Source: an uncultured Spartobacteria bacterium
GTDB lineage: Bacteria > Verrucomicrobiota > Verrucomicrobiia > Chthoniobacterales > Terrimicrobiaceae
DNA: 44,152 nt
Reading direction: 5' to 3'
Assembly: GCA_937890535.1 (NCBI GenBank)
Contig: CALBXK010000185.1
Span: 1 to 44,152 of the forward strand
Part shown: positions 2,709 to 32,815 of the stretch, piece after piece
How the letters are laid out: each line of letters begins with the position of its first letter
Numbering within the stretch: the first letter of the stretch is position 1
The notes under the pieces: model-generated
Seen by the model: only the letters and a program-made list of their open reading frames with translations
Databases searched by the model: none
Told to the model about the DNA's origin: nothing
Position numbers and translations under genes: made by a program

Positions 2709-2977
2709 AGGCAATCTACGAGACCAGTCAATTTCGGAAGGACATCAAAAAATTACAAAAGCAAGGAAAGGATATTGGAAAACTGAAAGATGTGGTCAAG
2801 CAGATTGCCAACGATCAGCGACTCGAGGACAGATATCGGGATCATGCACTGATCGGCCCTTGGCGAGGATCGCGGGATTGCCATATTGAACCCGACGGGT
2901 TGCTCATCTACCGGATAGATGATGGCTCTCTTTATCTTGAGCGGAGTGGCAGCCACAGCGGCTTATTTAAAAAGTAA
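2705..2977 (+). CDS. YafQ-family type II mRNA interferase toxin
   Basis: YETSQFRKDIKKLQKQGKDIGKL...DHALIGPWRGSRDCHIEPDGLLIYRIDDGSLYLERSGSHSGLF; overlaps the upstream antitoxin ORF by 4 bp. Confidence 0.88.
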   Translation: MKAIYETSQFRKDIKKLQKQGKDIGKLKDVVKQIANDQRLEDRYRDHALIGPWRGSRDCHIEPDGLLIYRIDDGSLYLERSGSHSGLFKK

Positions 2978-3120
2978 ATTCCCAACCAAGCGATCGACCG
3001 CCACCGCTGTCACTGTGGGTGCTGGGCTCCGCCGCACCCGGCGTGCCAGCGGTTCCGGGCAGGTCATCGCGGACGGGAAAGAGAAGTTTTGACATCGTGT
3101 TGCGTTTGCAACCCACTTGA

Positions 3121-24461: not shown

Positions 24462-24536
24462 GGTGCCTTCGTCTAGGGGTTAGGACACGGCCCTCTCACG
24501 GCCGGTGCACGGGTTCGAATCCCGTAGGCACTGCCA
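24462..24536 (+). tRNA. tRNA-Glu(CTC), CCA encoded
   Basis: ggtgccttcgtctaggggttaggacacggccctctcacggccggtgcacgggttcgaatcccgtaggcactgcca; acceptor ggtgcct/aggcact, anticodon loop CTCTCAC. Confidence 0.97.
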
Positions 24537-24542
24537 GATTTT
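24506..24542 (+). repeat. attL: 37-bp core repeat overlapping tRNA 3' end
   Basis: tgcacgggttcgaatcccgtaggcactgccagatttt identical to 32779-32815. Confidence 0.96.
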
Positions 24543-24642
24543 TCAGCGGTGAAATCACCTTCTAACGCACATAGATAAAGGGTTTGCGGGGTTTCTGGCT
24601 TTTCTTCCATTTTTGCAGTTCGCCCCCGTTTTTGGCGGAAAG

Positions 24643-24661
24643 TTTGTCACATTTTGTCACA
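24643..24661 (+). promoter_or_regulatory. Candidate integrase arm-type sites, left end
   Basis: tttgtcaca t tttgtcaca, 10-bp repeat period; the TTGTCACA core recurs at the right end. Confidence 0.6.
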
Positions 24662-24795
24662 GGGATCGCCATTCCCCTTGACTCCCACTCCCGGCAAGCG
24701 TAGTCCTCACCTGTCCGTTGCTAGAACAGCGGGCCGCCAATTCTCACCCTCGGATTAATCACCCGAACGGCGAAAACATGAAAAACGAGAAAAGT

Positions 24796-24867
24796 AGCCC
24801 GCTTCCAGATAGTTCCGGTGTGATAGCCGGGGCGAAAGGTTCTAGCCTTCTGGGAGTGGGCTTTTTT
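24796..24867 (+). ncRNA. Candidate structured leader RNA/attenuator upstream of the 24873 ORF
   Basis: agcccgcttccaga/tctgggagtgggct 14-bp stem (two G-U), 39-nt loop, then tttttt, ending just before ATG 24873. Confidence 0.5.
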
Positions 24868-24872
24868 GTATC

Positions 24873-25328
24873 ATGAAGACATTAGAGAAAAGCAATCGGG
24901 CCAGCAAATCGAGCGGCAGAATCGTCACGAAACAATTCAAATTCGCCACTGACATCGTCAAGATGGCGGAAGAGTTGGCAGAGATGCGCGGCCAGACCGT
25001 GAATGAGGTCATCACGGATGCGCTACGGGCGAAGGTCGATGAGAAATCGCGCTCCGTCACGTTGACCCCTGAGAACGCACGACGGGCGCGGGAAGTCGCG
25101 GACCTGTTGGAAATCGGCTTCGAGGATTACGCAAACAGCGTCTTGGAGGAGTTCCTTGACGACGTTTATGGTGGTCGCGTCGGAGAGGTGGAAGGTTGCA
25201 GTCGGACGTTCGATAGCCGGGCGGAGGCGGAAAGGATTGTCCGTCGCATTGATAAATTCGACGAGGTCACCGATCGGCGATGGGTCATTGAGGAAAAAGC
25301 GCCGGGCGTGTTCTGCGCGGATTACTAG
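24873..25328 (+). CDS. Hypothetical protein with two RHH-like segments
   Basis: TKQFKFATDIVKMAEELAEMRGQTVNEVITDALRAKV and SVTLTPENARRAREVADLLEIGFEDYANSVLEEFLDDV; followed by a strong terminator. Confidence 0.75.
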   Translation: MKTLEKSNRASKSSGRIVTKQFKFATDIVKMAEELAEMRGQTVNEVITDALRAKVDEKSRSVTLTPENARRAREVADLLEIGFEDYANSVLEEFLDDVYGGRVGEVEGCSRTFDSRAEAERIVRRIDKFDEVTDRRWVIEEKAPGVFCADY

Positions 25329-25344
25329 AGCAACCCGAAACCAG

Positions 25345-25379
25345 AAAACCCCGCCCGGCGAAATGCTTGGCGGGGTTTT
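25345..25379 (+). terminator. Rho-independent terminator
   Basis: aaaaccccgcc cggcgaaatgctt ggcggggtttt, then t. Confidence 0.88.
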
Positions 25380-25659
25380 TCGTGCCCTCGATTATCGGGC
25401 GAGGGTTTGCCCTTGCTCTCGAATAAAACCCACTCCTCGGGCATCGTCGCGCAAGATTTGACGGAGAAAATCCGGCTCGAGCCTGTGACCAGATGGTGAT
25501 CGCATAACGGGGCTTGAAACCTTTGGTTCCTTGCCTTTCGCTTCGGCAATTGCGGCGTGGGTTTCCCGGCGTGTCATGCTCTGGGCGGATTCGTTCCCAC
25601 AACTAAAACCGCCATTGCGACGGTGAAAATTCCAAGCTGAAGAAGTTGTCGCGACATTG

Positions 25660-25727
25660 AAAAAAAGGTGCGCCCCGACTGGCTGAATTTCTCGAGGTGT
25701 GTGAACTTTTGAGACCAGTCGGGGCGC
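25660..25727 (-). terminator. Terminator at end of island minus-strand operon
   Basis: 13-bp perfect stem gcgccccgactgg (25670-25682)/ccagtcggggcgc (25715-25727), 32-nt loop; on the minus strand followed by acc then a T tract. Confidence 0.7.
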
Positions 25728-25773
25728 GGTTTTATCCGGTGCGTGCTTGGCAGCGTTTGCGCACCGGGAAATG

Positions 25774-26217
25774 TTACAGGGCGGCGAGTGCTTCGCGGGC
25801 CTTAACGACTGCGGGGTCGTTCTGGGCTTTTTCCTCGGCGGCAGCAAGTGCGGCGGCAAGGCGTTGGCGTTTCTCTTCGGCGGCAAGCTCGGCAGCGAGT
25901 TCGTCGGCCTTTGCTTTGGCAATGGCATCGCGGAGAGGCTGAATCAGCTTCACGGCGGCCTTGTAGCGGTCGGTGGCTTCGAGGTGATCCAAGGCGAGAA
26001 TCATTCCGCCAACTTTCGCGGCGTGTTCGATTCGTGCGACGGAAATGTCGGGGTAACATTCTGCCGACATCTGAAGTTCAATCTTCGCTTTGTCGGCCTG
26101 GGCGCGGAGAGCGTCCACTGAATCGCAAAGATTGCGAAGGGAGCAATCAGCGTTGTCGAGTTTGTTCTGGGCGGTTTCGAGTGGTGTCATAATCTTAGTC
26201 TTGGATTTTTCCGCCAT
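25774..26217 (-). CDS. Island hypothetical protein, coiled-coil/Ala-rich
   Basis: MAEKSKTKIMTPLETAQNKLDNADCSLRNLCDSVDALRAQADKAKIELQ...; start chosen at ATG 26217. Confidence 0.65.
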   Translation of the reverse strand: MAEKSKTKIMTPLETAQNKLDNADCSLRNLCDSVDALRAQADKAKIELQMSAECYPDISVARIEHAAKVGGMILALDHLEATDRYKAAVKLIQPLRDAIAKAKADELAAELAAEEKRQRLAAALAAAEEKAQNDPAVVKAREALAAL

Positions 26218-26773
26218 TTTTGATGAAAGCCATTTTCGCGGCGGGGTCGAAAAAGGTGTTGAACTGTGCATAGCTGACGACTTTCGCTCCGGGCGATGGC
26301 TTGGATGCCTTGACGGGAGCGGGCTGTGGGTCAACGACCTGTCCACCCATCGCGCAAAACTTGCGTTTCTGGATCATGTCGAGTTCCGAAAACTCCTCAC
26401 GGGTGCAGGTTGGACGCTCAAGGCCAAGGCGAGCGGCAACCGACTGTTGAAGTCCGGCAATAAGTGGTTCCCTCACTTCTTTGCGCGGATCGGTTGCGAG
26501 CGCGGCAACCGTGCTTCCAAGGCTTTGAAGGTTCGCGGCGGTGGCGGGCTTGGGAACCGGAGATGGTGCGGCAGGCTTCACGGCGGCGGCAGGCAACCGT
26601 TTGTCGGCCTGCTCAATAATGCGGGCCTCGAGAAGGCTTGTTACTTTTTGCGGCAAGTCTCCAAAGCAAATTTGTTTGTTAAGCGGAAGGGCTTCAAAGC
26701 GCGCCGTCACGGATGACAGTTTTGCTCTTGCGGATTCCAGTTGTTCACGGAGGGGGATGGTAGGATTACTCAT
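26195..26773 (-). CDS. Island hypothetical protein with two FxxL/F...K..F...GG...D motifs
   Basis: EEFSELDMIQKRKFCAMGGQVVD and AQFNTFFDPAAKMAFIKNGGKIQD; overlaps the upstream gene by 4 bp. Confidence 0.7.
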   Translation of the reverse strand: MSNPTIPLREQLESARAKLSSVTARFEALPLNKQICFGDLPQKVTSLLEARIIEQADKRLPAAAVKPAAPSPVPKPATAANLQSLGSTVAALATDPRKEVREPLIAGLQQSVAARLGLERPTCTREEFSELDMIQKRKFCAMGGQVVDPQPAPVKASKPSPGAKVVSYAQFNTFFDPAAKMAFIKNGGKIQD

Positions 26774-27126
26774 TTGTTACTAAGCCGTTTCCCGCGTCGT
26801 TTCTTCGTAACCTGCTTAAATTCACCGCTTTGAATCCCGCGCAAAAAGTCCCTGCCCTCAGCTATTGCCCGATTGATTCGATCCTCGGAAATATGGTGAT
26901 CGCGGCCAATGTGGGCTTGGCACCTATCGTCTAAGCGTAGGAGCTTGGCGACAATCGCCAGTCGTGCGGGATCTGCCCCGGCCCACAACGTCACCGTGAT
27001 GAAGCGGGACGCCATGAGGCGGGCATCCAGGGGGATGGGAGCGGGTTCCTGCTCGGGCGGATCGTCAAAGAAGATGTCGGCTTCCTCTATTTCGGTGATG
27101 GTTCCGGCGTCGTCAAAATAGCTCAT
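26770..27126 (-). CDS. Island hypothetical protein
   Basis: 118 aa, overlaps both neighbours by 4 bp. Confidence 0.65.
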   Translation of the reverse strand: MSYFDDAGTITEIEEADIFFDDPPEQEPAPIPLDARLMASRFITVTLWAGADPARLAIVAKLLRLDDRCQAHIGRDHHISEDRINRAIAEGRDFLRGIQSGEFKQVTKKRRGKRLSNK

Positions 27127-27305
27127 TTCTTCACCTCCCGTTGAAGCTTACTGGCCTCTTCCCAGAAACGAGCATTCGCCTCTTCCTGTGCGGGCAGGTC
27201 GCCAGACTCTCGGGCCTTGCGGCAAGCCTCCTCGAAGGGTGCCATCCGTTTGTGAAACTCTTCAAATCCTTGAATGAGTCCACGAGCAACATAGTTCGGT
27301 TTCAT
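27123..27305 (-). CDS. Island small hypothetical protein (60 aa)
   Basis: MKPNYVARGLIQGFEEFHKRMAPFEEACRKARESGDLPAQEEANARFWEEASKLQREVKK; overlaps both neighbours by 4 bp. Confidence 0.65.
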   Translation of the reverse strand: MKPNYVARGLIQGFEEFHKRMAPFEEACRKARESGDLPAQEEANARFWEEASKLQREVKK

Positions 27306-27979
27306 TGTGCTTCCTCCGAGGAACTAAGTCCCAAGCTCGCCACCATGGCCTTGACTGCTTTCAGTTGCTCCGGTGTTCCTGCCTGTCCCTCGGCATGATT
27401 GGCCAAGGTCCACGATGCCGACACAAGGGCGTTGTGCCTTGCGGTTTCCTCAGCGCCCGGTCCCTTCGGAAAGCACGTGTCGCCCTCTTCCAAGACTTCA
27501 CGAACGCTTTGCACGATCTTGTTGTCTCCGAGGTAAAGAAGTGTCCCGAGGGCGGAATAATAGCCTCCACTTGCTAGGGCGTGAAACTCCTTTCCAAATT
27601 TCTGCCAGTCTGCGCCGATCTGGATGGCGAGCCGTTGCGATTGCATATCGAGGGCAACTGATGCAGCTCTCAAAAAACAGCGAATCCCTTCCTTCATTTT
27701 GGAAACCGGGATTGTCTCCTCCTCGCCAGAGCGGAGCCGTTGAAGTTCAATTTCGCCCTTTTCGCAAATCTGACGTTGGCGTTGGATTTTGAGGTTTAAG
27801 AGGACTTCGGTTTGTCCGGTGGCCTCTGCGGCCTCCTTGGCGAGTTGCTGCGCCCTACGACGGGAACAGGCGAGCCGTTTCTGTATCTGCGAAACGTCCT
27901 CGCTCGGTTTCGGGCCAGGTTTATTTCGACGTTTGGCTTTGGTGGCATCTTGCTTTTTGGGTGGGGTGGGGTGGTGCAT
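27302..27979 (-). CDS. Terminase small subunit-like (Nu1-type-like) protein
   Basis: Basic N terminus with HTH-like segment, then LLNLKIQRQRQICEKGEIELQRLRSGEEETIPVSKMKEGIRCFLRAASVALDMQSQRLA, reminiscent of TerS proteins. Confidence 0.5.
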   Translation of the reverse strand: MHHPTPPKKQDATKAKRRNKPGPKPSEDVSQIQKRLACSRRRAQQLAKEAAEATGQTEVLLNLKIQRQRQICEKGEIELQRLRSGEEETIPVSKMKEGIRCFLRAASVALDMQSQRLAIQIGADWQKFGKEFHALASGGYYSALGTLLYLGDNKIVQSVREVLEEGDTCFPKGPGAEETARHNALVSASWTLANHAEGQAGTPEQLKAVKAMVASLGLSSSEEAQ

Positions 27980-27983
27980 AAAG

Positions 27984-28163
27984 TTAATTAATTGCGAAAT
28001 TGATTTTGTTTGTTGCGCGCGTGAGATTCAGCTGCTGTCGCTGGAACCTAACCTGTGAAAGGGTTTCTAGGACTCTCTTACCCCGGCGGGTGGTCTGGTC
28101 ACTAATGCGAGAACCTGCCCGCAATTGCGCGAGAATGGCTGTGGATTGGTTTTGTTTATTCAT
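27984..28163 (-). CDS. Small HTH-like protein (59 aa)
   Basis: MNKQNQSTAILAQLRAGSRISDQTTRRGKRVLETLSQVRFQRQQLNLTRATNKINFAIN; ATG overlaps the PriCT-2 gene stop. Confidence 0.5.
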   Translation of the reverse strand: MNKQNQSTAILAQLRAGSRISDQTTRRGKRVLETLSQVRFQRQQLNLTRATNKINFAIN

Positions 28164-28719
28164 TTGATGCTTTGCCTTGGTATGTTCCTTTGAACGCCTT
28201 GAGCAGGTGCGCGGCAAATACTGCTTCGGGATCGTCTGCACCTTTGATGTGTCCGTCTGCCTGCATCCGTCGCAACTCTCCAGCGATGCGCCTTGCCTCA
28301 TGCCTGTCTGTGTCTGGCATTGGGTGTGGCAGTGTTGGCTCCGCTGGTAGCCTGGACCGCAACCAGCTGGGCATAGGTGCGCGCTTGATGGCTGCAACCT
28401 CTTGTGATGTTAGCCCGACTGCCTTAGTGGGCTGTGCTTTCGCTTTAGCCCCGTTGCCCTTCCAGCCATGCGCCTTTGCAATGTGAGGGAGAGTGGCACC
28501 TGTTACTTGCATAAGCCTGCCCCGATATTTGTTCGCATATTCTCCCGCCCGCTGTTCAGGACTCCATGCGTTTAATATCTGGCAAGCGCGGTCGAGCGGA
28601 AGGATGGCAAAGACTGAAGAGCAGACCCGCAACCAAAGTTCATATTCTGGCCTTGGGGGAATGCATGAGAGCATATTTGCAATGTCTGATTCTGTGAAAG
28701 TGTGAGTAGCAGTGTTCAT
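28156..28719 (-). CDS. PriCT-2 (primase C-terminal 2)-like replication protein
   Basis: DIANMLSCIPPRPEYELWLRVCSSVFAILPLDRACQILNAWSPEQRAGEYANKYRGRLMQVTGATLPHIAKAHGW. Confidence 0.75.
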   Translation of the reverse strand: MNTATHTFTESDIANMLSCIPPRPEYELWLRVCSSVFAILPLDRACQILNAWSPEQRAGEYANKYRGRLMQVTGATLPHIAKAHGWKGNGAKAKAQPTKAVGLTSQEVAAIKRAPMPSWLRSRLPAEPTLPHPMPDTDRHEARRIAGELRRMQADGHIKGADDPEAVFAAHLLKAFKGTYQGKASNE

Positions 28720-28734
28720 GGTGTATTTCTGAGG

Positions 28735-28856
28735 AGGAGGGGTAGGGGGTAGGGGTAACCCTATATATAGGGGTTACCCCTTACCCCCTCTTCCCCTCCA
28801 AAGGGTAAAGGGGTAAAAGAGGGGTAATTTACCCCCTTACCCCCTTACCCCTTGTT
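28735..28856. repeat. GGGGTAA/TTACCCC repeat cluster, candidate replication origin
   Basis: Multiple ggggtaa and ttacccc units in both orientations around ggggtaaccctatatataggggttacccc, between the two replication genes. Confidence 0.6.
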
Positions 28857-30456
28857 GATATGTTCCGTCGTCATTTTTGCTGATGATTCCAAGACCCTTC
28901 ATGTCTCGATATCGGTTCCGGGCGGTATCACTTGAACACCCTTCCTCACTCGCAATCCGGGCCAGTAAGTCGGTATAGTTCGCTGGGGTTGTCAGGACTT
29001 TGGAGGCGAGGTCTTGCAAGGACGCCTTCTTCCCTGCCTCTTTGATGCGTGCCCGCTCTGCGGTTGGATCTCCACAAGTTACATGCATCCCTTGTGCGGT
29101 GTCGTACTTGAAGTTGTGGGCCTCAGATTGGGGCCAGTAACCATCCCGCAAGGGAGCGCCGTAGACAGAACTGATTTCATCCTTCCCTTTGGTGACGACG
29201 AGCGCCCCCTGCATCTTCCGGTGCAGTTGGGAACCATAGTGCCCCCGCGTTTTCCCGTATTCGGTGCCGGGGTTCTCATGCAGGACGATCACGACCAAAC
29301 AGTCATGCTGAATGGCAAACCGAAATTGACGGTCCACCAGTTCATTTGCCATCGCTTCATCGTTCAAGGTGGCGAGGAAGTCGGCCCCACCGTCGAAGAT
29401 CACGCATCGGATTTTTGATTCCTTTGCCACGGTCTCGGCGGCAGTTTCCACCAGTGCCCACCGTTCCGCCAAGGGGACAGCGAGAAGGGTGAATGAAGCT
29501 AAGTCTCCCGGCACCTCTGCCAATCCTGCCCGCTTTTGGACGGTTGTTTGCATGAGGCGGAAATGATTCTTCGGCCCTTGCTCGCAATCGAAATGCAGGA
29601 CAAAACCGTCGGCAGGTGGTGCGACAAATCCCAAGCAGTCGGAGCCGCTATCGGGATCTGAAATAAACGACGCCATGATTCCAGAAACGACGCCAGTCTT
29701 TCCGCTCTTCATTTGGCCTTGAATGACGACAAGGTTGCCCCTCTCGCCTATGACGTCGCCACGGTCATTTGTGAGCACTGGCGGCTCTTCTGGTGGCGGG
29801 GACGCAAGCCCTTTGAAAAGCGCGGCTCCCACCATCTCTTGCCTCCGGGCCATCATCGCCTCCTCGTCTGTGAGAGGTTGCCAGTTGGCGACGTCTAACG
29901 GGACAGCATCAAGGTTTAGGTGGGCATCGGGGTCATGGGACACAAAGCAGAGTCGGGAAACGTCTTTGCCTGATTGGTCCAAGGTAAGCCCATGTACATC
30001 TTTGAAGTATCGTTCCGCCGCCTTGAATGCCTCCAAGTGTCCGGTGCCATCTCCAGCGATAGGGGCGCGGATCGCGGCCTTTACGCCTTTCCCGGACGGA
30101 CTGAGGAAAGCAAGGATGACATGGGGGTCGGAGACCAATTTGCCAATTACCTCTTGAACCTGCCCCTCTGGCAGTTTGTCGATATCCACGGTGAGCACCC
30201 CTGAATGCTCCTCCAGCGACTCTGAATCCCGCTTCGAGAAGGTGCCCGACATCGTGACGGCGGGTAGAGTGCGTTTGAGTTTGTCGAAATCCGCTTTTCG
30301 TCCGGCTGCCAGGCACTCTTGAGCCTGTCGCACCTTGTCTATGATCTCGGGCCTTGGGGAGCGGATAGCGCCCACGAATTGAGAGATGGTGATGGTCTTC
30401 CCGCAAGCTGGATCTGTCACCTTGGGGAACGTACTGATTTGGGGGTCTGTGCTCAC
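28837..30456 (-). CDS. Primase/helicase-like replication protein (BT4734/VirE_N-like N terminus plus RecA-like AAA_25 ATPase)
   Basis: LEEHSGVLTVDIDKLPEGQVQEVIGKLVSDPHVILAFLSPSGKGVKAAIRA; GNLVVIQGQMKSGKTGVVSGIMASF Walker A; IRCVIFDGGADF Walker B-like. GTG start. Confidence 0.8.
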   Translation of the reverse strand: MSTDPQISTFPKVTDPACGKTITISQFVGAIRSPRPEIIDKVRQAQECLAAGRKADFDKLKRTLPAVTMSGTFSKRDSESLEEHSGVLTVDIDKLPEGQVQEVIGKLVSDPHVILAFLSPSGKGVKAAIRAPIAGDGTGHLEAFKAAERYFKDVHGLTLDQSGKDVSRLCFVSHDPDAHLNLDAVPLDVANWQPLTDEEAMMARRQEMVGAALFKGLASPPPEEPPVLTNDRGDVIGERGNLVVIQGQMKSGKTGVVSGIMASFISDPDSGSDCLGFVAPPADGFVLHFDCEQGPKNHFRLMQTTVQKRAGLAEVPGDLASFTLLAVPLAERWALVETAAETVAKESKIRCVIFDGGADFLATLNDEAMANELVDRQFRFAIQHDCLVVIVLHENPGTEYGKTRGHYGSQLHRKMQGALVVTKGKDEISSVYGAPLRDGYWPQSEAHNFKYDTAQGMHVTCGDPTAERARIKEAGKKASLQDLASKVLTTPANYTDLLARIASEEGCSSDTARNRYRDMKGLGIISKNDDGTYQQGVRG

Positions 30457-30629
30457 AGTTTCCCCTTTCTCAATGCATCGGCATCGGCTTGGCGGACCCG
30501 CTCGGCAAAGTCGCTGGCCTTGACATGCCCTGTTAATTGAGAGGTTCTCTCGAAACTTGTATCAGAGTTGTGGGCGCATTCTTTGCCGGGTGCGCCCGCT
30601 CTGTTTTTAGGCGGGGAGAGGTCTTTCAT
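30453..30629 (-). CDS. Small island protein (58 aa)
   Basis: Manual translation MKDLSPPKNRAGAPGKECAHNSDTSFERTSQLTGHVKASDFAERVRQADADALRKGKL*; overlaps both neighbours by 4 bp. Below ORF-track cutoff. Confidence 0.55.
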   Translation of the reverse strand: MKDLSPPKNRAGAPGKECAHNSDTSFERTSQLTGHVKASDFAERVRQADADALRKGKL

Positions 30630-30943
30630 TGGAGAACCTCCTGCAAGGATGCTGTGCGAAGCTTTTCAAGGGCGCTGAAAACCTCGGACTTCCGAAAAAG
30701 GCGATGTTTGCCGATTTTGAAAGACGGGATGAGTCCTTGCTGTGCGTATTGGTGAAAAGACCGAACCGGGATATTCACGATTGCTGCCATTTGTGGCGCA
30801 TGATGAAGTTCCGGCTCTGGCATTGGGGGGGGGATCTTCTTTGTCCGTTCCTTCTTTGCCGTTTCCGGCGTTTCGTTTAGTTCCGGCTCAATTGCCGATG
30901 GGGTAGCGTTAATTGCGGTCATACGCTGTTGGGGCAGTGTCAA
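30626..30943 (-). CDS. Excisionase/AlpA-like HTH protein
   Basis: HHAPQMAAIVNIPVRSFHQYAQQGLIPSFKIGKHRLFRKSEVFSALEKLR resembles HTH_17 excisionase. Confidence 0.75.
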   Translation of the reverse strand: MTLPQQRMTAINATPSAIEPELNETPETAKKERTKKIPPPMPEPELHHAPQMAAIVNIPVRSFHQYAQQGLIPSFKIGKHRLFRKSEVFSALEKLRTASLQEVLQ

Positions 30944-30972
30944 CTTGACGAATCTGATGCAGTTGTTTACGT

Positions 30973-31497
30973 TTGACGTTTATGAAGCTGCTTTCCCTTG
31001 GTGATATTTCAAAACTGACTGGATACAGTCGGGCCTCGATTCACAATTACGCGGTGGCGGATAGGATTCCCGGTGATCCCGTCACCCGACCGCCGGGCAA
31101 GCAATTCCGCTATGCCGATACGGAAAAACTTCGTGACTGGTGTAGTCTTCGAAAAGAAATTAGGGTATCAGCCCTGCCACGGAAAGGGGCGTCGGGTTCT
31201 CATTCTGCCAGAGTTCTCAGAACCTACAAAAAGGGAATGGACATCTTGAACGGAGATGATTTTGACCCTGACGACCTAAAGTTGGCCGGATGCATTCTTG
31301 ACGCAGCGGCCCCCCTTCTTTTCGAATTTCAGGACGGGCCTTCCCCGGTGGCGCGCGGGGTTTTGGCGGCGTTATCGCATCACCTCTTACTCAATAGAGC
31401 AATCAAGCGGGATGAGGAAGCGGCGATGAAAATCATTGATGCCTTCTATTCGGTTCAGCAGGGGATTGCGCACAAACTCAAGCACTCAGAGGTCTAA
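30973..31497 (+). CDS. MerR-like HTH regulator, divergent from replication operon
   Basis: MKLLSLGDISKLTGYSRASIHNYAVADRIPGDPVTRPPGKQFRYADTEKLRDW. Confidence 0.7.
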   Translation: MTFMKLLSLGDISKLTGYSRASIHNYAVADRIPGDPVTRPPGKQFRYADTEKLRDWCSLRKEIRVSALPRKGASGSHSARVLRTYKKGMDILNGDDFDPDDLKLAGCILDAAAPLLFEFQDGPSPVARGVLAALSHHLLLNRAIKRDEEAAMKIIDAFYSVQQGIAHKLKHSEV

Positions 31498-32719
31498 TTG
31501 AAAACCATTCCTCGGCCTGCGCTGGCGCCACAAGCGCGCGGTAGTTCTCCGTGATTATGCGCGGGCTGTTTCCTGCCTCCATTGCCACTTGCGCGACGTT
31601 TTGAACGGCGGCAACCCGGTAGGACACAAAAGAGTGTCGAAGTCCATTTCTCACGAATAGTAGGTCGGGGTTCGTCATTGCAGCTTTTGAGGCACGGAGC
31701 AAAACGGAATCATGGGAATATTGAGGGACAACCGGGCCGGATGATTTCGCGATGTTGGCCAACCATTCTTTCAGAGCGGGGACAATAGGGACGATGCGCC
31801 GGGCGGCTGTCTTGGCGATCCTCGCGCCAATGATGATGTGGCCAGTCGAAAGATTTACGTCTTTCCAATCTAGGCGATGAATTTCCGCCGTTCTCAGTCC
31901 GGCAAACCCTCCAATGGCCACAAGTGGCAAAAACTCTGGTGAGGTCGCTTCGAGGAGGGTGCGGAATTGCTGCGGTGTATATATTCCAATCTCGCCGCCG
32001 GGTTCGGTGGCGGTTTTCACCTTCTCGGCCTCGGTGCGGGCACCCTCTGGCAAGTATCCCTTGTCTTTCGCAAATGCGAAAACGGTTCGGAGCATGGCGC
32101 AATAATTGTTTCGAGTGCGTCCTTTCACTTTAATTGACGTGAGCCAGGCAGAAATATCGGCAGCCTTGATTGATTCAACAGGTGTCTTGAATGCCTTTCT
32201 TGGTCGGGAGAGGCGACTTGAACAGTCCTCAATATATCGGGCGGAACGTCCAAGGGATTCGATTTCTTCCAAAAACTCAGAGACGACGCGAGGGAAGGGC
32301 ACGTTCCTTTCTCCTTTTTGGTTTGCGAGGAAGTCGACGTAATGTTGCACGGCGATGACGATAGAGCCCCGGCCATCCAATATTTTTTGGGCCTCGGCAT
32401 ATTCTCGGGCCACTGTTGAGAGAGGAACCCCGACACCTTTTAGAACTTCCACGGCATCGGCCACCACTGCGGTTTGCCTGGGGGTGAGGGTGCCAACGTG
32501 GGCGGCTCCACTGGTGAGAGTCTTAATCTTCGCCTTGGCTGTCTTGCGGGCCTCCTCAATCGTTGAAGCCCTTTCCCTGATGCGCTTCCCGTCAGCGTAA
32601 TAGGCGAGCATATAACCCGACTTTCCGAAAGCGTTTGCTCGATAGATTGGGATTTTAACGCCGTTGGATTCGACTACCTCAACCGGGCCTCTTTTTGTGC
32701 TTTGGGATGGCTTTTTCAT
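31478..32719 (-). CDS. Tyrosine recombinase / phage integrase
   Basis: FAGLRTAEIHRLDWKDVNLSTGHIII...LRHSFVSYRVA...ENYRALV; R, HxxR, Y catalytic pattern; adjacent to attR. Start at ATG 32719 (track uses TTG 32725). Confidence 0.93.
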   Translation of the reverse strand: MKKPSQSTKRGPVEVVESNGVKIPIYRANAFGKSGYMLAYYADGKRIRERASTIEEARKTAKAKIKTLTSGAAHVGTLTPRQTAVVADAVEVLKGVGVPLSTVAREYAEAQKILDGRGSIVIAVQHYVDFLANQKGERNVPFPRVVSEFLEEIESLGRSARYIEDCSSRLSRPRKAFKTPVESIKAADISAWLTSIKVKGRTRNNYCAMLRTVFAFAKDKGYLPEGARTEAEKVKTATEPGGEIGIYTPQQFRTLLEATSPEFLPLVAIGGFAGLRTAEIHRLDWKDVNLSTGHIIIGARIAKTAARRIVPIVPALKEWLANIAKSSGPVVPQYSHDSVLLRASKAAMTNPDLLFVRNGLRHSFVSYRVAAVQNVAQVAMEAGNSPRIITENYRALVAPAQAEEWFSIRPLSA

Positions 32720-32726
32720 GGCCAAC

Positions 32727-32747
32727 TTGTCACAGAATTGTCACAGA
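32727..32747 (+). promoter_or_regulatory. Candidate integrase arm-type sites, right end
   Basis: ttgtcacaga a ttgtcacaga, 11-bp repeat period, same core and orientation as left end; immediately upstream of int. Confidence 0.6.
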
Positions 32748-32778
32748 GAGTCAATTCTAGAGTTCTTCCTAGGTAAAT

Positions 32779-32815
32779 TGCACGGGTTCGAATCCCGTAG
32801 GCACTGCCAGATTTT
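32779..32815 (+). repeat. attR: 37-bp partial tRNA-Glu repeat
   Basis: tgcacgggttcgaatcccgtaggcactgccagatttt. Confidence 0.96.

Follow-up and report, generated by a model that had tools for sequence, protein, structure and literature searches.

The stretch of DNA analysed here (the window, 44,152 nt) is a 44-kb contig, CALBXK010000185.1, of an uncultured Spartobacteria bacterium whose genome (G000) is a 3.7-Mb incomplete draft in 410 contigs. It carries a compact element that spans 8.27 kb between perfect 37-bp direct repeats at a tRNA-Glu gene and that, judged from its sequence, is probably a phage satellite working like the phage-inducible chromosomal islands (PICIs). A preliminary description of the sequence had left the choice between a phage satellite and a minimal integrative replicon; the former is favoured here because relatives that share the element's replication core and its habit of integrating into tRNA genes carry differing small terminase subunits (TerS) without large terminases, and because the origin is built from two iteron sets. 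To our knowledge, a TerS without a phage terminase has no known use and is sensible only with a helper phage. The strongest support for the satellite is provided by the TerS genes of the relatives and not by the element's own TerS candidate, whose identity lacks the backing of homology.

A search of related genomes of the same order for similar elements, as the preliminary description had proposed, yielded compact elements of 6.4-13.4 kb, each with 38-50-bp tRNA repeats, in G079, G084 (two), G199, G087 and G051 (genes beyond the window were called with a plain longest-open-reading-frame script). The closest relative among the genomes compared is G079, a metagenome-assembled genome named 'Chthoniobacter flavus', whose element (~6.4 kb, split over two contig ends; tRNA-Arg, 47-bp attachment (att) repeats) comprises an integrase, a primase/helicase 61-71% identical to that of the window, an origin, PriCT-2 and a TerS (phrog_4102, 1.8e-13). 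The G199 element (7.6 kb; tRNA-Leu, 38-bp att) has an integrase converging with a divergent regulator, a helicase, an origin and a TerS of another family (phrog_57, 9.3e-5), while that of G051 (C28, L319:8650-18152; 9.5 kb; tRNA-Pro, 50-bp att) encodes a relative of the window's ribbon-helix-helix (RHH) protein, an ERCC4 nuclease, a 593-aa coiled-coil-like protein and a Nu1-type TerS, which is weak by profile (phrog_57, 0.0029) and aligns with z = 9 to a TerS strongly matching phrog_57. No large terminase, portal or capsid was recognised in these TerS-bearing elements. In G084, contig 111 holds an integrase, helicase and origin core (6.9 kb; tRNA-Lys, 43-bp att), the integrase being 50% identical to that of G079, and contig 62 a related primase and integrase (6.4 kb; tRNA-Arg, 41-bp att). 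Finally, the G087 element (C13, L315:3013-16426; 13.4 kb; tRNA-Ala, 46-bp att) combines an integrase, a helicase, an RHH protein and a gene of the 192-aa type with a 683-aa tape-measure protein (phrog_9483, 1.6e-12) resembling that of Verrucomicrobia phage P8625; this protein aside, no structural gene was recognised in it, and it may be a satellite able to alter helper tails. The group is a mosaic, since both G084 elements and those of G087 and G051 have only parts in common with the window, and the exact origin core is missing from the latter two.

The repeat cluster noted in the preliminary description is borne out, and has the layout of a PICI origin, with two iteron sets about an AT-rich centre: CCCCTATATATAGGG lies 63 nt past the helicase stop, and GGGGTAA iterons are oppositely oriented around it. 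Across 216 genomes of the order, the exact 12-mer CCTATATATAGG turned up only three times, always within an origin belonging to such an element, and its reversed control pattern once each in two other genomes. The core is the same in G079 (GGGGCAA iterons) and G084 contig 111 (GTGGAAA iterons), whilst G199 has a CCTATATATATAGG core with TTGAGGTG iterons; in all of these, as in G000, the origin lies 3' of the helicase gene, and a looser version is present in G019. The core is also a cheap sequence handle for locating more such elements; the third match exposed the G084 contig 111 element, which was absent from the primase-search listing.

A survey of the motif CCCTATATATAGGG covered 78 scorable occurrences among the IMG/VR matches listed, with 24,000 random positions as control. 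A 7-mer common to both sides and present in at least 5 copies was found at 13 of these 78 sites as against 169 of the 24,000; with at least 6 copies, the figures were 10 of 78 and 110 of 24,000, respectively, and 0 of 40 for other TATATATA sites. Where a related helicase gene lay at most 300 nt from the core, the core was 3' of it in 10 loci and 5' of it in none, five of the ten having been selected through the core itself. The core sequence was not found in the literature searched. In seven IMG/VR loci (L189, L212, L219, L229, L236, L105 and L127), on different phage contigs, a RecA-like helicase gene is followed directly on its 3' side by an origin-like CCCTATATATAGGG-type palindrome between varied iterons of 7-8 nt, and such palindromes seem to represent an origin class that is general and so far undescribed. 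The replication modules of four of them (L105, L127, L229, L236) match the window in that the helicase gene is followed within ~150 nt by a like palindrome and iterons, and differ from it in their iteron sequences and in belonging, in some cases at least, to full phages.

When compared with PICIs as their organisation is described in PMC6092414, with the window proteins profiled by Pfam, PHROG and PADLOC, the element shows many of the same features. It has an integrase with specific att sites (a tyrosine integrase and 37-bp tRNA-Glu repeats), a divergent regulatory pair (30973(+) and xis 30943(-)) and, like PICIs, no recognised structural genes; its two iteron sets follow the primase/helicase gene, just as PICI origins are defined by two iteron sets about an AT-rich region after the primase/rep module (PMC6092414). 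PICIs also carry terS (some members) or cos, for which the window offers a positional candidate among the genes after the origin, and G079 and G199 a TerS supported by profile. In contrast, PICI int runs with the master repressor and opposite to xis-pri-rep, whereas the window integrase (-) runs with the xis-primase operon, as in G199. Further differences are a primase of the BT4734 type that shares one protein with a RecA-like helicase, PriCT-2 as a separate gene past the origin, the Verrucomicrobiota host and the compact size of 8.3 kb. The PICMI satellites of Vibrionaceae, which are also very small (~6.7 kb) and integrated next to fis (PMC10803314), likewise combine an integrase, an AlpA/HTH_17-type regulator and a primase core; the window element differs from them in its tRNA-Glu site, its iteron origin and its TerS candidate.

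Several observations weigh against a satellite, the first of which concerns its 225-aa TerS candidate (27302-27979). The TerS-like label given to it in the preliminary description finds no support in the sequence: no terminase match was obtained in Pfam, PHROGs or phage tblastn, and nothing significant came from searches of genome contigs and viral contigs, from comparing profiles or from alignments tested against shuffled sequences, the highest score (z = 2.7, against the G199 TerS) being attained by 1.3% of shuffles. A single-sequence AlphaFold model was uninformative (pLDDT 51.5; best Foldseek E 0.66). In the absence of significant homology, the identity thus depends on position, as the recognised TerS of G079 occupies the same slot, directly after PriCT-2. 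When the window primase, the TerS candidate and the G079 TerS were used as single queries, no relatives appeared in viral contigs, and for the two window proteins these close-relative searches also count against a satellite. The same holds for the integrase, which, unlike that of PICIs, is not co-directional with the regulator, and for the helper phage: none was identified, and G000 (an incomplete draft), G079, G084 and G199 all lacked a recognisable GpA-type large terminase. A weak TerS match in G187, whose alignment reads through stops, was judged a chance match.

One alternative is a minimal integrative replicon with no specialisation for phage packaging. It would excise, replicate from its iterons and spread through generalised transduction, through natural transformation or with the help of a mobilisation origin that escaped recognition, and the 225-aa protein would act as a regulator. 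The missing homology of that protein would suit such a replicon, as would a related helicase beside a relaxase-like gene (G371, L040) and a relative in G081 in which integrase and primase are followed by type I restriction-modification genes and no TerS was recognised. This explanation is nevertheless unlikely, given the TerS genes of three sister or related elements, the tail tape-measure gene of the G087 relative and the lack of a recognised relaxase in the window element. A prophage remnant whose structural genes were lost through decay or deletion is very improbable and already largely contradicted: although helicases of distant kinship are found in full prophages or phages with large terminase and portal (G474 L039; IMG/VR L104, L106), the att sites are intact and identical, the open reading frames are unbroken and tightly coupled, and independent, similarly compact elements lie at differing tRNAs in differing genera. 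Confinement of the homologues to full prophages, named in the preliminary description as grounds for giving up its proposal, is not what is seen: the nearest relatives are compact elements integrated at tRNA genes. Least probable of all is true membership of the described PICI family, which would fit the functional order (int, divergent regulators, xis, primase-rep, ori, terS) and the origin organisation (PMC6092414), but int points towards the divergent regulator where the two should be co-directional, and the primase has a BT4734-type domain; membership is not claimed, owing to the int orientation.

If the element is a satellite, the plus-strand regulator would keep the xis-primase operon silent until a helper phage lifts this repression. 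Int and Xis would then excise the element through recombination of the 37-bp repeats, and the helicase would bind the GGGGTAA iterons, probably via an inferred winged-helix-like segment at its C-terminus, and open the TA-rich CCTATATATAGG centre, upon which the element would replicate. The satellite's small terminase subunit would direct the large terminase of the helper, leading to packaging of satellite DNA in helper particles, and in a new host cell Int would insert the element into tRNA-Glu. Among the sister elements TerS and iterons vary around a constant replication core, a pattern that retuning of packaging to different helpers would be expected to produce. A broader idea, offered tentatively, is that a satellite lineage of Chthoniobacterales-type Verrucomicrobiota hosts may keep the CCTATATATAGG core and swap iteron code and TerS from element to element, that the core may mark a broad, undescribed phage/satellite origin class, and that some relatives may re-specify helper tails, as the G087 tape-measure protein suggests. 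If true, PICI-like phage parasitism would extend to Verrucomicrobiota; no description of such a satellite in this phylum was found in the literature searched, which did not include two key satellite surveys. A natural set of elements that share an origin core and differ in iterons and terminases would also make origin recognition by an initiator-helicase, and helper switching by satellites, testable.

As for helpers, G051 contains a separate prophage-like locus (L078) with a Nu1-type TerS, a large terminase and portal-like genes, and prophages of this kind are a plausible helper type. Nu1-type TerS proteins are common to the prophages of the same order (L078 in G051, L079 in G037, L077 in G019) and the satellite-like G051 element; unlike the window element, these prophages have a large terminase, a portal and other structural genes. 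Weak partial matches to phrog_2 in four genomes were not used as helper evidence.

Features of the integrated element, with coordinates in the window and the evidence for each
Feature	Coordinates	Strand	Evidence
tRNA-Glu (CTC), intact, integration target	24462..24536	+	ARAGORN
attL, 37-bp repeat = tRNA-Glu 3' half + 6 nt	24506..24542	+	perfect direct repeat
RHH-type DNA-binding protein, 151 aa, adjoins attL, convergent with operon	24873..25328	+	PSK_trans_fac 1e-5
Coiled-coil-like small protein, ~147 aa, start codon uncertain	25774..26217	-	open reading frame
192-aa protein, repeated F..L.P..K..F...GGK..D-type motif	26195..26773	-	open reading frame
118-aa protein, no assignment	26770..27126	-	open reading frame, 4-nt overlap with next gene
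60-aa protein, no assignment	27123..27305	-	open reading frame, 4-nt overlaps
Candidate TerS, 225 aa; N-terminus basic, helix-turn-helix-like segment, helical	27302..27979	-	position only
PriCT-2-like protein, 187 aa	28156..28719	-	54% identity to G079 orthologue
Replication origin, GGGGTAA iterons in inverted arrays around palindrome CCTATATATAGG (28760-28771)	28733..28860		just 3' of helicase gene
Primase/helicase, 539 aa	28837..30456	-	BT4734-like_N 4e-28 + AAA_25 5e-7
58-aa protein, no assignment	30453..30629	-	open reading frame, 4-nt overlaps
Excisionase-like HTH_17 protein, 105 aa	30626..30943	-	HTH_17 1.1e-7; phrog_66 1.8e-6
Helix-turn-helix regulator, likely repressor, ATG at 30982	30973..31497	+	open reading frame, weak helix-turn-helix matches
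Tyrosine integrase, 415 aa	31478..32725	-	PF00589 2.9e-7; phrog_1 6e-26
attR, 37-bp repeat, tRNA 3' part only	32779..32815	+	perfect direct repeat

The gene layout agrees with the preliminary description: the integrase (-) converges on the regulator (+), which stands back to back with xis, and the minus-strand operon extends from 30943 to 25774, several of its neighbouring genes overlapping by 4 nt. Profile matches likewise uphold the integrase, the excisionase-like protein and the primase-helicase, and no capsid, tail, portal, large terminase or relaxase was recognised among the open reading frames of the element by Pfam or PHROG. The PriCT-2-like label is carried by a weak PriCT_2 match (E 0.003) in the G079 orthologue, the window protein itself giving none. 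A homologue of the 192-aa protein in the G087 element (E 1.1e-5; pairwise 8.9e-8) adjoins the tape-measure gene; phrog_12259, tried as a lead for this protein, gave no match, the controls being likewise silent. The ~147-aa coiled-coil-like protein has no convincing family in Pfam or PHROG profile searches, and the PSK_trans_fac match of the RHH protein falls just below the curated cut-off. Among 215 genomes of the order, relatives of the RHH protein are confined to the G087 and G051 elements. A PADLOC scan of the window proteins for defence genes matched the primase domain alone.

The 37-bp repeat, by far the longest perfect direct repeat of the region, was confirmed as exact by repeat search, and so was the arrangement of an intact tRNA on the left, the sole tRNA detected in the window, and a 3' fragment on the right. 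GC content is nearly alike within the element (0.547) and outside it (0.565), and the element is therefore not detectable from composition alone. The insertion looks recent or variable, since the glutaredoxin-tRNA-Glu neighbourhood of G079, G082 and G084 has no integrase or primase beside the tRNA. As regards the empty sites that the preliminary description had proposed to look for, the result goes no further than the lack of an element beside the tRNA: the left flank is kept in these genomes, but the right flank is not syntenic, which prevents a full comparison. In G079 (C43; L094, about 2858-3070), the 3' end of tRNA-Glu is repeated over 16 nt ~200 nt past the intact tRNA, and this copy may be a relic attachment site.

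ERCC4-type nucleases recur in related elements, right after helicase or replication genes (L044 8987-9463, L031 614-1114, L319 14762-15226). The G081 locus (C54; L033, 5899-14683) has an integrase and a BT4734/PriCT-2 primase, and the type I restriction-modification-like genes that come directly after them are possible defence cargo; no att repeat was found there. The same TerS-like gene (phrog_57, 2.3e-11) is present in G035 (L075:11892-12497) and G034 (L076:2177-2782), with the same host gene beside it and no large terminase adjoining, and in G035 a large BT4734-primase gene is located nearby. Finally, G000 has two more integrases, on C59 (L082, 482-1744) and C139 (L083, 36-1289), 40% and 48% identical to that of the window, respectively; they lie near the starts of their contigs and probably mark further integrated elements.

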